A DNA stretch of 64,000 bases from Pectinatus brassicae (GTDB lineage Bacteria; Bacillota; Negativicutes; Selenomonadales; Selenomonadaceae): assembly GCF_014201835.1 (NCBI RefSeq), contig NZ_JACHFH010000017.1:1-64000 (forward strand), in the 5' to 3' direction. The position numbers were made by a program, and so were the translations under genes. Below the pieces are notes generated by a model. That model did not search any database. It was given only the letters and a program-made list of their open reading frames with translations, and was not told the DNA's origin. The first letter of the stretch is position 1. Every line of letters begins with the position of its first letter. Shown piece by piece: positions 13,693 through 32,748 of this stretch.

Positions 13693-14481
13693 TTACAGTA
13701 TCTGATCGAGATTTCTTACTAGACCCTTTAATCCCGTTACTTTTTTGCATGCCAGTACCACGCCAGGCATAAATGATGTACGGTCAATGGAATCATGACG
13801 AAGGGTAAGTGTTTGGCCCAGACCGCCAAAAATAACTTCCTGATGAGCAACATAGCCAGGCAGTCTTACGCTGTGAATAGGAATACCATTGTATTCGGCG
13901 CCACGTGCCCCAGTAATCTTTTCTGTTTCATCAGGATGTCCCTGTTTCATTGGTTTACGCACTTCACTGATCATTTCAGCAGTGGTTATCGCCGTACCAG
14001 ATGGTGCATCAAGTTTTTGATCATGATGCAGCTCGATAATCTCCACATTAGGCAGATATTTAGCCGCTTCTTTAGCCATCATCATCATCAATACTGCTCC
14101 AATAGCAAAATTAGCAGCAATAAATGCTGGTGTATTATTAGCTATTGCTAATTCATTAAGCTTATCTTTTTCCGCATCAGACAAGCCTGTTGTCCCAATT
14201 ACCGGGCTGACATGATTTTTAAGAGCTGTGCAGGCATTATTAAAAATAACATCTGGGCGGGTAAAGTCAACCATTACATCCGGTTTTACAGCTTTAATTA
14301 CCGTCTGCAAGTCCTCACCAACTATAATATTAGTTTTACCAATCCCAAGTAATTCCCCAACATCCTTACCGCCCTTTATATCAACTGCTCCAACAAGTTC
14401 TAATTCCTTATCATCCAAAACAGCTTTTAAAACTGCCTGTCCCATTCGTCCACAAGCACCATTTACTATAACCTTAGTCAA
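13693..14481 (-). CDS. dapB: 4-hydroxy-tetrahydrodipicolinate reductase
   Basis: A 262-residue DapB of the lysine/diaminopimelate pathway. The dinucleotide-binding motif GACGRMGQAV and the catalytic signature ELHHDQKLDAPSGTA are intact. The start codon is TTG with a GGGGG Shine-Dalgarno sequence. It heads a dapB-asd unit, and a MITE-like repeat sits about 58 bases upstream, next to or within the promoter. Confidence 0.95.
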   Translation of the reverse strand: MTKVIVNGACGRMGQAVLKAVLDDKELELVGAVDIKGGKDVGELLGIGKTNIIVGEDLQTVIKAVKPDVMVDFTRPDVIFNNACTALKNHVSPVIGTTGLSDAEKDKLNELAIANNTPAFIAANFAIGAVLMMMMAKEAAKYLPNVEIIELHHDQKLDAPSGTAITTAEMISEVRKPMKQGHPDETEKITGARGAEYNGIPIHSVRLPGYVAHQEVIFGGLGQTLTLRHDSIDRTSFMPGVVLACKKVTGLKGLVRNLDQIL

Positions 14482-14538
14482 AATACGACCCCCTGTAATT
14501 AATTCTTATATAGCTGACACCTAATAACAGTTATTTTA

Positions 14539-14747
14539 AATTGTGCTAGTTGAATTTTAGATTCCCGAAAGGCTCCCCTATATGCTATAGTTCTTTGCGC
14601 TTTAGCGCTTAGAAATATAGTACACACCGTGTGCGGAGCTGGCAGCAAAGCTGCCTGAGGGGTTACCCCTTCCGACTTGACTTCGTCAAGCCACCTTCCC
14701 TGAAGGGACGGCTTTAAGTCCACACTATTTTATTTACTAGCACAATT
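14539..14747. repeat. MITE-like dispersed repeat, copy 1
   Basis: A 209-bp element bounded by a perfect 12-bp terminal inverted repeat (AATTGTGCTAGT / ACTAGCACAATT). Its core (GGAGCTGGCAGCAAAGCTG, CCGACTTGACTTCGTCAAG) is shared with a second copy at 15822-16027. A roughly 54-base palindromic module (starting ATGCTATAGTTC, with the hairpin GCGCTTTAGCGC) is inserted in the left arm between CCCT and GGAG. It carries no transposase and is a non-autonomous element. Confidence 0.8.
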
Positions 14748-14886
14748 ACAAAATTATTTAAATCATCTGCCATCACATTTAAAATTTACATTTTCCCATA
14801 TACAATATGTAAATTTGTATCATCCATATACATATAAATCAAAAAGCTGCTGCTTTTTAGATAAACATCTTGCTCTATTATACTAA

Positions 14887-14913
14887 AACCAGCTATAAAA
14901 TCAATAGCTGGTT
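14887..14913 (-). terminator. Intrinsic terminator of the VTT-domain gene
   Basis: A 10-bp perfect stem (AACCAGCTAT / ATAGCTGGTT) with a seven-base loop, followed on the minus strand by TTTTAG, just after the stop at 14924. The rest of 14748-14886 shows nothing recognisable. Confidence 0.75.
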
Positions 14914-14923
14914 AATAAAAGTA

Positions 14924-15610
14924 TTAATTTTTATTACGAATGTTCTTTCTGTTTAATAACCATATACCGCCATATATAACAGTTGCCCCTATTATAATGA
15001 TTGTCAATCTGCCTAAATGCTGTTTATACATAAAGGCATCATGGCCGATCATAACTTCCAGAGCCGTTGCAGGCAATTTGCCAATAAGACTGGCCAATGC
15101 ATAGTCTCTCATCTTTATCTTGCTTATCGCTCCTAAAGCCGTCAACAATCCCGATGGAAAATACGGCAGTGAACGTAATATCAGCATAAGCTTAAAACCA
15201 TTTGTTCCGCTAAATTCATCTATTCTGGTTAATTTATTACTTTTTTTGATAAGCTTTTCTGCCGATGGCCGTAAAATTGTCCGCATCAGCCAAAAACCAA
15301 TTATTACGCCGATCGTTTCAGCCAGCCAGGAGGAAACAATGCCAATAGCCGGCCCAAACAATACCCCATTGGCTGTTATTACAAAAATAGACGGCAGCCC
15401 CACTACATTGACCAACAACACCAATAAAAATCCTAAAAACACCGCCAGCCCACCAAAAGAATTTATATAAGCTGTTATTTCCTGCATATCGCCGCTTATT
15501 ATCACACTAAATAATTTTGTATAAAAGTCAGGAGCAGCAATGTGTATTCCTATTATTAAAACAAACAATACTACCCAGCCAATCAGTTTTACCTTATTAT
15601 CTGCTTTCAC
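14924..15610 (-). CDS. TVP38/TMEM64 (VTT/DedA-like) family membrane protein
   Basis: A polytopic membrane protein with hydrophobic segments and the VTT-domain pattern LRSLPYFPSGLLTALGAISKIKM. The re-entrant region GLPSIFVITANGVLFG is also typical. Bacterial relatives are implicated in lipid carrier or phospholipid translocation. I prefer the GTG start at 15610, which has GGGGAG seven bases upstream (228 residues); an in-frame ATG at 15640 has no properly spaced ribosome-binding site. It lies between two copies of the same MITE-like repeat. Confidence 0.82.
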   Translation of the reverse strand: MKADNKVKLIGWVVLFVLIIGIHIAAPDFYTKLFSVIISGDMQEITAYINSFGGLAVFLGFLLVLLVNVVGLPSIFVITANGVLFGPAIGIVSSWLAETIGVIIGFWLMRTILRPSAEKLIKKSNKLTRIDEFSGTNGFKLMLILRSLPYFPSGLLTALGAISKIKMRDYALASLIGKLPATALEVMIGHDAFMYKQHLGRLTIIIIGATVIYGGIWLLNRKNIRNKN

Positions 15611-15821
15611 CGTTGTACTCCCCTGCATAAACCCTATCATCCTTTTATGTTATTCATTATATTTACACCAGAATTATCGTAAAATCTAATCTTTAAATGA
15701 GACTTGCTTAATTTTATCACATATTATAAATATCGTGCAGCTTTTCCGTAATATTTATTATTATTTTTATAACTTTTAATAAAATTCTAAGAAAAAATTT
15801 ATATATTATTTATATTTTCGC

Positions 15822-16027
15822 ATTGTGCTAATTGAAATTTAGATGACTGAAAGGCTCCCCTGTAGGGGAGCTGGCAGCAAAGCTGCCTGAGGGGTTAACC
15901 CTTCCGACTTGACTTCGTCAAGCCACCTTCCCTATGCTGTAGTTCTTAGTGCTTTAGCACTTTAGAAATACAGTACACACTGTGCAGGGACGGCTTTAAA
16001 GACACACTAGTTTATTAACTAGCACAA
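15822..16027. repeat. MITE-like dispersed repeat, copy 2
   Basis: A 206-bp relative of the copy at 14539-14747, with TTGTGCTA termini in inverted orientation and the same core. Here the palindromic module (ATGCTGTAGTTC, hairpin GTGCTTTAGCAC, GTACACACTGTGC) sits in the right arm, between CCCT and AGGGACGG, while the left arm has the short form CCCCTGTAGGGG. The two copies therefore carry the same module in opposite arms. Confidence 0.8.
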
Positions 16028-16060
16028 CACGATTATATTTATATTTTTTATGATTTCTAT

Positions 16061-16100
16061 AAAAAAAATGGGCTTGCCGCAGATACGACAGGTCCATTTC
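16061..16100 (-). terminator. Intrinsic terminator after fmt
   Basis: Minus strand: an imperfect stem formed by AATGGACCTGTCG and CGGCAAGCCCATT, followed by eight Ts, just after the fmt stop codon. Confidence 0.7.
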
Positions 16101-16107
16101 ACATCAC

Positions 16108-17040
16108 TTAATTAAATTGCAGTGGCAGTTCTAATTTATGCCCATTGGCATAAGCTTTAGCACTCATTCGCTTTTTGCTTGGTGCCTGTAGTTCAAGAAT
16201 TTCCACAGCATTTTCGCCAGTAGCAACTACTAACCCGTTTTTGCTTATTTCCACAATTTCACCAGGCTTGGAAAAATTTCCTTTTACTACAGCAGTTTGC
16301 CAAATTTTTATTTTTTTATCATCAAGCATGGTATAAGCTACTGGCCAGGAATTAAGTCCGCGCACCTGATTATGAATTTCTTGGGCTGATTTCGTCCAAT
16401 CAATACGACAGGTATCATCATTCAACATCGGTGAATAAGTAGATAATTTATCATCTTGTTTTTCCCGTATTACTGAATTATCTTCAACAGCATGAATTGT
16501 TTTTTCCAGTAACGCCGAACCCATTGCCATGAGTTTATCGTGCAATTCTTCGGTTGTCATATCAGCTGTTATTTCTACACTGTCCTTTAATATCATGTCC
16601 CCGGTATCAAGACCAGCATCCATATACATTGTAGTAACACCCGTCATTTTTTCACCGCGAATAATTGACCAGTGAATTGGTGCTGCTCCACGATAACGTG
16701 GCAATAAAGAAGCATGAACATTAATGCAGCCCTTCGGCGGAATATCAAGAATTTCCTGTGACAAAATCTGACCAAAAGCAACAACAATGATTATATCCGG
16801 CTGCAACTTACGCAGTTCTTCCACAAATTCAGGAGTTTTCACCTTAGTTGGCTGTAGTACCGGTAAATTATGTTCCACAGCAAAAGCTTTAACTGGTGAT
16901 GGTGTAAATTTTTGTCCACGGCCTCTCTTTTTATCAGGCTGTGTAATAACACTTATCACATCGCAAATTTCATGCAATTTAGCCAGGCAGGGAACAGCAA
17001 AATCCGGCGTTCCCATAAAGACCGCTTTTAATTTAGTCAT
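16108..17040 (-). CDS. fmt: Methionyl-tRNA formyltransferase
   Basis: A 310-residue enzyme that formylates initiator Met-tRNA. The start (KAVFMGTPDFAVP), the folate-domain motif HASLLPRYRGAAPIHWSI and the DAGLDTGDM segment are diagnostic. It overlaps def by eight bases, the usual coupling of formylation with deformylation. Confidence 0.96.
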   Translation of the reverse strand: MTKLKAVFMGTPDFAVPCLAKLHEICDVISVITQPDKKRGRGQKFTPSPVKAFAVEHNLPVLQPTKVKTPEFVEELRKLQPDIIIVVAFGQILSQEILDIPPKGCINVHASLLPRYRGAAPIHWSIIRGEKMTGVTTMYMDAGLDTGDMILKDSVEITADMTTEELHDKLMAMGSALLEKTIHAVEDNSVIREKQDDKLSTYSPMLNDDTCRIDWTKSAQEIHNQVRGLNSWPVAYTMLDDKKIKIWQTAVVKGNFSKPGEIVEISKNGLVVATGENAVEILELQAPSKKRMSAKAYANGHKLELPLQFN

Positions 17041-26363: not shown

Positions 26364-26894
26364 TTATTTCCAACTAATAATACTGTCATTAACATCTTTA
26401 TACTTTCCTTTATGAATTTTTTGTGGATATCCAATAGCAATTACTGCCATAAGTTCTAATTTGTCAGATACCTCTAGAAGTCTTTTTATACTTTCTTCAT
26501 TTTTTATTATTTCGCCAAGCCAACATGTCCCCAGTTCAAGTTCATTGGCAGCCAGCAGCATATTTTGTATTGCAGCACCAATAGCTTGAGCATGTTTCAT
26601 ATATACCTTTGGCGTTTCAGCATCTTTCATACTATCGGTATCTAAAAACACTGCAATTAAGCAAGAGGCGTCTTTTACCCATTTTTCACAAATTGTCAAT
26701 GATGCTATTTTTTCCAGTAATTTTTTATCTTTCATAATTACAGAAAATCGCCAAGGCTGGATGCTCCCACCATATGGAGCACAGACAGCAGCTTTTAAAA
26801 CAGCTTCAATATCATCTTTTTTTACAGGTACCTGTCTATAGGCTCTAATGCTCCTACGGGTCATTATATTTAATAAAGTATTCACTTTTTTCAC
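26364..26894 (-). CDS. Nitroreductase family protein
   Basis: A 176-residue FMN-dependent oxidoreductase with the N-terminal signature RRSIRAYRQVPV, APYGGSIQPWRFSVI (FMN and substrate region) and the late ELGTCWLGEI and AVIAIGYPQ motifs. It is divergent from the encapsulin operon, with about 220 bases between them. The natural substrate is unknown. Confidence 0.9.
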   Translation of the reverse strand: MKKVNTLLNIMTRRSIRAYRQVPVKKDDIEAVLKAAVCAPYGGSIQPWRFSVIMKDKKLLEKIASLTICEKWVKDASCLIAVFLDTDSMKDAETPKVYMKHAQAIGAAIQNMLLAANELELGTCWLGEIIKNEESIKRLLEVSDKLELMAVIAIGYPQKIHKGKYKDVNDSIISWK

Positions 26895-30100: not shown

Positions 30101-30353
30101 TGTCACGGGGCACTGCCATTTATTCTGAATAAGGGCAAAAATGGCTAACCCGCCGACATAGACAAAAAGACCTTGCATTAGAGCTTTTAACGAAGCTCAT
30201 GCAGGGTCTTTTTTTATCCTCAACCCGCGTAAATAAAGGACTTTCTGCTTGCGAAAAAAGAACGTTCACCATGGAGTGGCGGGCATAACTGGCAAAGCCA
30301 GAGAGAATAAAGAAAAATGCCCTTTACAGAATAAACGTCAGTGCCCCGCGACA
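30101..30353. repeat. Two inverted transposon-end repeats enclosing a terminator
   Basis: TGTCACGGGGCACTGCCATT at 30101 continues with TTATTCTGAATAAGGGCA. The reverse complement of the sequence ending at 30353 reads TGTCGCGGGGCACTGACGTT followed by TATTCTGTAAAGGGCA. They match for about 40 bases in inverted orientation, so this 253-bp block has the form of a mini-element with TGT...ACA ends. The flanking pentamers (TAAAG, TGGTG) do not match. Confidence 0.75.
30164..30215. terminator. Strong bidirectional terminator
   Basis: AAAAAGACC, TGCAT and GAGCTT pair with AAGCTC, ATGCA and GGTCTTTTT around the loop TTAACG. The stem is about 20 bp with A and T runs on both sides. It probably ends guaA transcription and shields the transposon, although it lies inside the end repeats. 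Confidence 0.85.
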
Positions 30354-30932: not shown

Positions 30933-32748
30933 TTTATTGAAGGATGGTAACAACATTATCAGGGTTTTAGAGATACAGCCTGATAAAATCCTCATGATTG
31001 ATTGTGCAAAAAGGACTATGCCTGTATGGGTGAAATCTTCGGTTTTAGATTCTTTCATTGGGTGCACTGATGAAGTATTGAACCAGACTACGAATTTTAC
31101 TGTTACTGTTACTGATATTGAAAATCTGAATGCTGATCAGAAAAGAACCATGTATGACCGTTACACATTGATTGCACCAATTCTACCTTTTATAGCAGAT
31201 GAAAGAATGCGTTCTAAACTTATTGGTTCCATAGCTACAGAACACAACATATCCAAACAGACCATCAGAAGCTATTTATGCCTGTATCTGGCCTATATGA
31301 ATATAATAGTTCTTGCCCCAAGGCAACGGTTAGATGATATTAAGCTAACACAAGATGAAAAAAACATACGATGGGCTTTGAATAAATTTTTTTATACTAC
31401 AAAAAAGCAATCCCTTATGACTGCTTATACCATGATGCTGAAGGAGAAGTATTGTGACAATATGGATGTTCTAGCAGATAAATACCCGTCTTTTTATCAA
31501 TTTCGTTATTTCTATCGTAAGACAAAAAAGATGCAGAACTTCTATATTTCCAGAAACGGATTGAAGAATTACCAACGAAACAACAGACCTCTGATTGGCG
31601 ATGGGATACAATCATTTGCACCTGCTATTGGCGTTGGTATGCTGGATTCTACTGTATGCGATATTTACCTCATCAATGATACTGGTAATATTGTGGGCAG
31701 ACCCATTTTAACAGCCTGTATTGACGCTTACAGCGGTGTGTGCTGCGGTTATGTCCTATCATGGTCTGGTGGAGTATACAGCCTTAGAGGATTGATGCTG
31801 AACGTTATAGCAGATAAAGCTACTTGGTGTAAGCAGTTTGGCATTTCTATAAATAAGGAGGATTGGTCTTGTAACAAACTTCCTGCGACGATGGTTACGG
31901 ATATGGGGAGTGAATACAAATCGGAAAACTTTGAGCAAATTGCAGAGCTGGGTGTTAAAATAGTCAATCTTCCTTCATATAGACCTGAACTGAAAGGCAT
32001 GGTGGAGAAATTCTTTGATGTGGTTCAGGCGAACTATAAAAAGCATTTGAAAGGGAAGGGTGTGATTGAAGTTGATTATCAAGAAAGGGGCGCGCATGAC
32101 TATCGGAAAGATGCCTGTTTGACCATGGTGGATTTTGAGAAAATTATCCTTCATTGCATCATGTATTACAACTCGCAACGGATCATTGAAAATTTCCCCT
32201 ACACTGAAGCCATGATTGCCGAAAATGTAAAACCCTATGCAAGCTGTATCTGGAATTGGGGTAAATCCCAATTCGGTGCCCATTTGATTAAAGTTAGTGC
32301 TGAAGAGCTTATACTTACGCTATTGCCAAGAACTACAGGTAAATTCAGTAGATTTGGCTTAAAAGTAAACAAAATGCGCTATCACTGTGACGGGTATACA
32401 GAGCAGTATCTTAAAGGTGATGAAGTTACCGTTGCCTATAATCCAGAGGATGTTACTTCTGTATGGCTATTGGAAAATGGAATATATGCTAAATTTACCA
32501 TTATTGAATCTAGATTTGAGGGTAAAGATTTGATTGCCGTACAGGAGTTACAGACAGCTCAGAGATCGATTACCAAAGGAGCTAATCAAGATAATCTACA
32601 GGCTCAGATTCATCTTGCGCGGCATATTGAGATAATCGCTGGTAGTGCCAGGCGCAGTGCCGATGTGAGCGTAAAAAATATTCGAGATAACCGCAAATGT
32701 GAACAGCATAAACGCCATAGAAACTATATGGAAGGAGCTAAGTCATGA
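30919..32748 (+). CDS. TnsB-like DDE transposase
   Basis: A 609-residue Mu/Tn7-type transposase with an N-terminal DNA-binding region, an rve integrase core and a beta-barrel C-terminal domain. Catalytic residues are visible as D243 (GMLDSTV), D328 (VTDMGSE) and E363 (GMVEKFF), with the usual 34-residue D-E spacing. Start placed at 30919; the frame extends 57 bases upstream into tnsA. Its stop overlaps the tnsC start (ATGA). Confidence 0.92.
   Translation: MKKHDLLKDGNNIIRVLEIQPDKILMIDCAKRTMPVWVKSSVLDSFIGCTDEVLNQTTNFTVTVTDIENLNADQKRTMYDRYTLIAPILPFIADERMRSKLIGSIATEHNISKQTIRSYLCLYLAYMNIIVLAPRQRLDDIKLTQDEKNIRWALNKFFYTTKKQSLMTAYTMMLKEKYCDNMDVLADKYPSFYQFRYFYRKTKKMQNFYISRNGLKNYQRNNRPLIGDGIQSFAPAIGVGMLDSTVCDIYLINDTGNIVGRPILTACIDAYSGVCCGYVLSWSGGVYSLRGLMLNVIADKATWCKQFGISINKEDWSCNKLPATMVTDMGSEYKSENFEQIAELGVKIVNLPSYRPELKGMVEKFFDVVQANYKKHLKGKGVIEVDYQERGAHDYRKDACLTMVDFEKIILHCIMYYNSQRIIENFPYTEAMIAENVKPYASCIWNWGKSQFGAHLIKVSAEELILTLLPRTTGKFSRFGLKVNKMRYHCDGYTEQYLKGDEVTVAYNPEDVTSVWLLENGIYAKFTIIESRFEGKDLIAVQELQTAQRSITKGANQDNLQAQIHLARHIEIIAGSARRSADVSVKNIRDNRKCEQHKRHRNYMEGAKS

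Follow-up and report, generated by a model that had tools for sequence, protein, structure and literature searches.

A putatively mobile double-hairpin module at the tips of palindromic repeats in Pectinatus brassicae

Introduction

Palindromic repeats nested in other palindromic repeats have been described from algal organelles. In the mitochondrial and plastid DNA of Volvox carteri, palindromes of approximately 50 nt with TTTA or TAAA loops are found "inserted within another palindromic repeat" (PMC2670323). Fungal and sponge mitochondria contain double-hairpin elements and RHE, which are described as short, multi-copy, free of flanking duplications and thought to be mobile by an unknown route (cited in PMC2800124). 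In bacteria, the insertion sequences IS1397, ISRm22, and ISPpu9 target REP palindromes at a fixed point, which for ISRm22 is the axis of palindromy (PMC1525189). A limited literature search by sequence strings and keywords among open-licence papers found no report of bacterial hairpins nested in hairpin tips.

The locus analysed here lies in a 64,000-nt stretch of a P. brassicae contig (hereafter, the window) and comprises two copies of a miniature element with a palindromic module in opposite arms. The original prediction, made from the letters alone, was that a hairpin of roughly 54 bases is inserted after CCCT in each copy, either as a second mobile hairpin with hairpin tips as its targets or through recombination between the arms.

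Results

Structure of the two MITE copies

The two copies are situated on either side of a dedA-like gene, which lies between fmt and dapB; all genes are on the minus strand, and their names derive from a reading of the translations (Table 1). As originally described, the copies share their termini and core: the terminal inverted repeats TTGTGCTARTT and AACTAGCACAA, present at both ends of most copies in the genome, and a 67-bp core with 99% identity and equal orientation. The predicted positions of the module, at the left-arm tip in copy 1 and the right-arm tip in copy 2, are likewise correct. Its size and form required small corrections, as the modules are double hairpins of 53 bp in copy 1 and 52 bp in copy 2; the former follows CCCCTAT and the latter CCCT. 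In each copy, the arm that lacks a module closes as an ordinary hairpin (copy 1, CCC-TGAA-GGG; copy 2, CCCC-TGTA-GGGG), and the AGG of the host arm is missing from the left-arm insertion of copy 1.

Unit A consists of hairpin 1 (GGCTCCCCT..AGGGGAGC), hairpin 2 (GGCAGC-AAA-GCTGCC), and then GAGGGGTT. Unit B is an inverted unit of the same design, with AACCCTTCCG and hairpin 2 followed by CCACCTTCCCT..AGGGACGGC. Folding as single-stranded DNA reproduces these hairpins, with z = -6.7 for copy 1 and -6.4 for copy 2, with 0 of 200 shuffles as good.

Table 1. Positions of the element copies, their hairpins and the inserted modules within the window
Feature	Position	Strand	Evidence or remark
MITE copy 1	14540..14746	+	between dedA-like gene and dapB; module in left arm only
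Copy 1 left terminal inverted repeat, TTGTGCTAGTT	14541..14551	+	
Copy 1 unit A hairpin 1, GGCTCCCCT...GGAGC	14571..14639	+	module at tip
Copy 1 module M3, double hairpin, inner core TTGCGCTTTAGCGCTT	14582..14634	+	covariance model, 78.7 bits, E 4.4e-17
Copy 1 unit A hairpin 2, GGCAGC-AAA-GCTGCC	14641..14655	+	folding
Copy 1 unit B (inverted A-type unit) hairpin 2, CTTGAC-TTC-GTCAAG	14676..14690	+	
Copy 1 unit B hairpin 1 tip, CCC-TGAA-GGG	14698..14707	+	empty
Copy 1 right terminal inverted repeat, ACTAGCACAAT	14736..14746	+	
MITE copy 2	15822..16029	+	between fmt and dedA-like gene; module in right arm only; AT-rich flanking duplication
Copy 2 unit A hairpin 1, GCTCCCC-TGTA-GGGGAGC	15854..15871	+	empty tip
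Copy 2 module M1, tip of unit B hairpin 1 (CCCT^...^AGGG)	15934..15985	+	covariance model, 78.1 bits, E 6.3e-17

The host element of approximately 207 bp is a MITE, with terminal inverted repeats and target duplications of about 8 bp. The duplications are AT-rich and lie directly outside the terminal repeats in several copies, for example ATTATGTT (C1:51725), TACATTAT (C50:617), and TTATTTAT (C2:67872). The copies sit in intergenic spaces. The dapB-dedA neighbourhood is kept in 4/4 genomes of the same genus and the spacer contains the MITE in 0/4 of them; hence, copy 1 is a lineage-specific insertion. A pattern search for a parent or autonomous transposon with the MITE terminal repeats found no parent, and the solo matches inspected were chance-like.

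A DNA search of the genome returned about 80 places related to the element. On contigs C24 and C27, one palindromic unit is repeated in alternating orientation to form B-A-B-A arrays, which corresponds to a BIME organisation. A module-free MITE remnant is located in a CRISPR array (C5:74960-75055), between copies of the repeat ACATAAGCCCCGTAAGGGGACGAAAAC. Outside the genome, a similarity search of phage and plasmid records returned one A-unit match in each and no module; these A-type double hairpin units, with 86-89% identity, are on the plasmid pDAETH-1 of Deinococcus aetherius and on the fecal phage contig MT837768.1.

The module family

The module, of approximately 52 bp, consists of a long hairpin with a TTTA loop, a short hairpin, and GC. 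Its subfamilies, M1, M2, M3, and N, share the consensus ATGCTxyAGxTCT, inner hairpin with the TTTA loop, AGAxATxyAGTA, and then the short second hairpin. The two modules of the window belong to different subfamilies, M3 on the left and M1 on the right. The stems comprise 17 pairs in two helices, with 96% paired cells and 39 two-sided changes compared with 11.3 in shuffles; between subfamilies, two-sided pair changes occur at 6 of the 14 pairs of helix 1. When the partner is shifted by one column, the paired cells fall from 96% to 13-31%. The two-sided stem changes, together with this collapse, show that the pairing is real. An end tag of the GTAG/CGTC type is absent: the corresponding position reads GTAG in M1 and M2, ATAG in M3, and ACAG in N, and is paired within the stem.

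A covariance model built on the copies of this genome, with a cut-off of 38 bits, detects 53 modules in the genome at or above that score, with E-values down to 1e-17, a number that excludes chance. A search of positions 14400-16200 of the window against Rfam gave three matches, all below the gathering scores.

Arm states and placement of the module

Among the 25 MITE copies scorable at both arms, which were scored partly by eye, 7 carry no module, 4 carry it on the left, 11 on the right, and 3 on both sides, so the possibility that all other copies hold both modules, raised at the outset, proved false. With all four combinations present, a single insertion per arm followed by clonal descent is insufficient, and recurrent insertion, loss, or recombination is needed. 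For every filled tip, the orientation of the module is equal in A and B, even though A and B are mutually inverted. Because homologous exchange between the arms would invert the module, recombination between arms is unlikely as the origin of the pattern, and arm-to-arm conversion was rejected on this ground. Recombination among MITE copies may have shuffled the arms.

Classified by flank, the 53 modules are found at B tips (27), at A tips (12), inside another module (13), and elsewhere (1). Whenever one module is nested in another, the inserted one is N, and its position is constant: in M1, M2, and M3 alike it separates the inner hairpin from the 3' arm. In the stretches retrieved from the draft genome (89 contigs), from which the A and B tip counts derive, all 36 empty B tips have the form C-TNNA-G (TAAA 15, TGAA 10, TACA 5, TAGA 5, TGCA 1), and a T at the start and an A at the end are retained in 34 of the 35 filled B tips. 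A tips mostly hold M3, and the B tips of the MITE hold M1 or M2. The constant orientation per arm and the predominance of one subfamily in A tips point to few founder insertions. The sole module outside A/B tips and other modules (C42:311-362) adjoins an unrelated palindrome, GATACTTTTCTTTG..CAAAGAAAAGTAT.

Paralogous arrays allow filled and empty tips to be compared directly. In the C24 array, where the 120-nt flanks are 90-97% identical, the exact same point is empty at 30314, holds M1 at 26554, 27863, and 29710, and holds M3 with N inside at 31771. The C27 paralogues follow the same pattern, with M1 in one and M3 in another. What a tip contains therefore changes more rapidly than the sequence that flanks it. 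The filled tips differ in their junctions (TATGC..GTGCA, TATGC..GTGCTA, TTGC..GTGCAA or GTGAAA, and A tips without AGG), and such a variety of host-module-junction combinations implies that tips were occupied on several separate occasions. The module junctions show no target duplication. The region C24:26200-31850, with repeated gene segments and many B-A arrays, provides a natural comparison of filled with empty tips.

The module in other genomes

The inner-core pattern has matches in 18 of the 81 genomes of the same family, whereas the reversed control pattern has 0; the copy number among related genomes is highly uneven, ranging from 0 to 64. The module of G088 (64 copies) and G028 is built with different outer arms (ATAAGCAGAC..GTCGCTTAT) and occupies one of three places in A/B-like double hairpins: the tip, the 3' base, or the 3' arm of hairpin 1. 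Reading 22 loci of G088 by eye placed 13 modules in the 3' arm, 6 after hairpin 2, 2 at tips, and 1 at another site. In G021 and G070, the module is inside other palindromes, and in a related genus (g25) the tip module can point either way with respect to its host unit (loci L172 and L179 versus L188 and L197). Tips are thus the favoured site in the window genome but, with the relatives included, not the exclusive one, and the more general pattern is insertion into palindromic repeats.

Among 299 genomes of the phylum, the core occurs beyond its own family in only one more family (f33). The f33 genomes contain interspersed multi-hairpin repeats of approximately 200 nt, in which the inner core stays constant and the outer arms vary in a compensating manner. 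In two congeners (G004 and G001), the spacer between the 23S and 5S rRNA genes is filled with arrays of M-like hairpins, which border directly on the 5S gene and carry CGCGAACG..CGCG tails. The one readable 23S-5S spacer of the genome itself, at C4, has no M-like array. Since the core is present in other genomes and in unrelated palindromes, and M-like arrays are present in rRNA spacers, the module exists independently of this MITE. The other possibility raised at the outset, that it never occurs outside this repeat, is thereby false; the module also fills tips of non-MITE arrays. Judging from the similarity matches, A/B-type units are spread wider than the module, far beyond the family.

The exact module pattern gave 2 matches in 84,980 genomes, in Halanaerobium and Saprospiraceae, and on inspection the former is not a repeat and is chance-like. 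A phage vehicle was considered and rejected: none of the 69 viral matches to the core pattern has extended self-complementarity, and they are attributed to chance.

Discussion

The module (M) is probably a mobile element of very small size, a non-autonomous double hairpin with a preference for insertion into palindromic repeats, and is then copied with its hosts. Its main target would be the T-N-N-A loop at the tips of the BIME-like double-hairpin units A and B, and a second site would lie beside the inner hairpin of another M, where variant N enters. The host units themselves are carried by the terminal-inverted-repeat MITE or are arranged in B-A arrays. The left, right, both, and none states would result from a number of tip insertions that took place separately, after which the host element was copied and its copies recombined to some extent. 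The target would presumably be an extruded or single-stranded hairpin, and the actor a host or trans-acting enzyme. Hairpin cleavage with repair and template switching at tips are possible alternative routes. The genome contains three Y1 genes, which by sequence inspection look like ordinary IS200/IS605 TnpA, and no Y1 transposase was found in the module-rich relatives G021, G028, G070, and G086; mobilisation by Y1/RAYT was rejected on both grounds.

The second mobile hairpin of the original prediction is largely supported in this genome. In its favour are the 39 of 53 modules at A/B tips, the 13 within other modules, the filled and empty paralogues, and the family outside the repeat. Tip targeting is too narrow a description, as the module of relatives can also occupy the 3' arm or the base of a double hairpin, and we infer the movement of the module itself from the comparison of paralogues and congeners.

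In a rival reading, the module entered the MITE once or twice long ago and has not moved since, and the arm patterns were produced by exchange between arms and between copies, through gene conversion or homologous recombination. This would account for all four arm combinations, which are expected from recombination among copies, and the division of M3 and M1/M2 between A tips and MITE B tips is compatible with few founders. Such a history is unlikely, however, given that the module has one orientation in all filled tips of the inverted arms A and B, that tips of non-MITE arrays are filled too and with differing junctions (TATGC..GTGCA, TTGC..GTGCAA, and ..GTGCTA), that the module type is swapped between near-identical paralogues, and that the family also occurs in unrelated palindromes and rRNA spacers. 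Replication might instead switch templates at hairpin tips and copy segments of other hairpins into the loop through CT..AG microhomology, without a transposase. The inserts are full-length with constant ends and orientation rather than variable in length, and their junctions are clean when compared with empty paralogues, which makes this route improbable in spite of the CT/AG microhomology common to the tips, the absence of target duplication, the A-tip insertions without the AGG of the host arm, and the lack of a transposase that tracks the module.

It is distinctly unlikely that the inner core hairpin CTTAGYGCTTTAGCRCTTAG is a selected DNA or RNA site, such as a protein-binding palindrome or a hairpin for RNA processing or stability, with nesting that reflects loop tolerance rather than targeting. 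Compensatory stem changes, the conservation of the core and TTTA loop across two families, and the location in rRNA spacers agree with such a site. Against it stand a copy number of 0 to 64 among related genomes, the nesting of copies in each other and in MITEs, and the lack of a match to an Rfam family, and no consistent gene neighbourhood was noted. Returning to the mobile double hairpin, a more ambitious form of it, in which a dedicated recursive system recognises T-N-N-A loops and inserts double hairpins of approximately 50 bp in two bacterial families, under the same tip rule as in Volvox, is possible but doubtful. The case also shows that short extragenic palindromes can act as landing pads for others, which would build complex mosaic repeats stepwise.

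REP and BIME repeats, insertion sequences that target REP palindromes, and mitochondrial double-hairpin elements each have single features in common with the repeats described here. Compared with REP and BIME sequences, A and B resemble one palindromic unit that alternates in arrays, and they are likewise intergenic and non-autonomous (PMC2817692, PMC3733652). However, the units described here are double hairpins without a conserved GTAG or CGTC end tag, no RAYT was seen, and module-rich relatives lack Y1 genes. The insertion sequences that target REP palindromes differ in that the insert here is a 52-bp non-coding hairpin that nests in its own kind. The 207-bp element is similar to other bacterial MITEs in its terminal inverted repeats and target duplications of about 8 bp, but it carries BIME-like units and tip modules in its arms, and the terminal-repeat search found no parent transposon. 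Unlike the mitochondrial double-hairpin elements, the module belongs to a bacterial chromosome and strongly prefers the tips of other repeats.

There is also a likeness in form to the nested palindromes of Volvox, which are approximately 50 nt long and often have a TTTA loop, as in the module. Furthermore, GCTCCCCTTTAGGGGAGC, a variant of the A-unit tip, finds a match in the motif TCCCCTTTAGGGA of the Volvox plastid (PMC2670323). The Volvox repeats belong to green-alga organelles, where a MITE host is not reported. The motifs are short, and the likeness may represent a shared design reached by convergence, with no evidence of common descent. In algal organelles, nested palindromes of this TTTA-loop type were described without a mechanism. 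The bacterium offers dozens of tips, both filled and empty, together with several module subfamilies and many related genomes, and so opens the entry of hairpins into hairpins to genetics.
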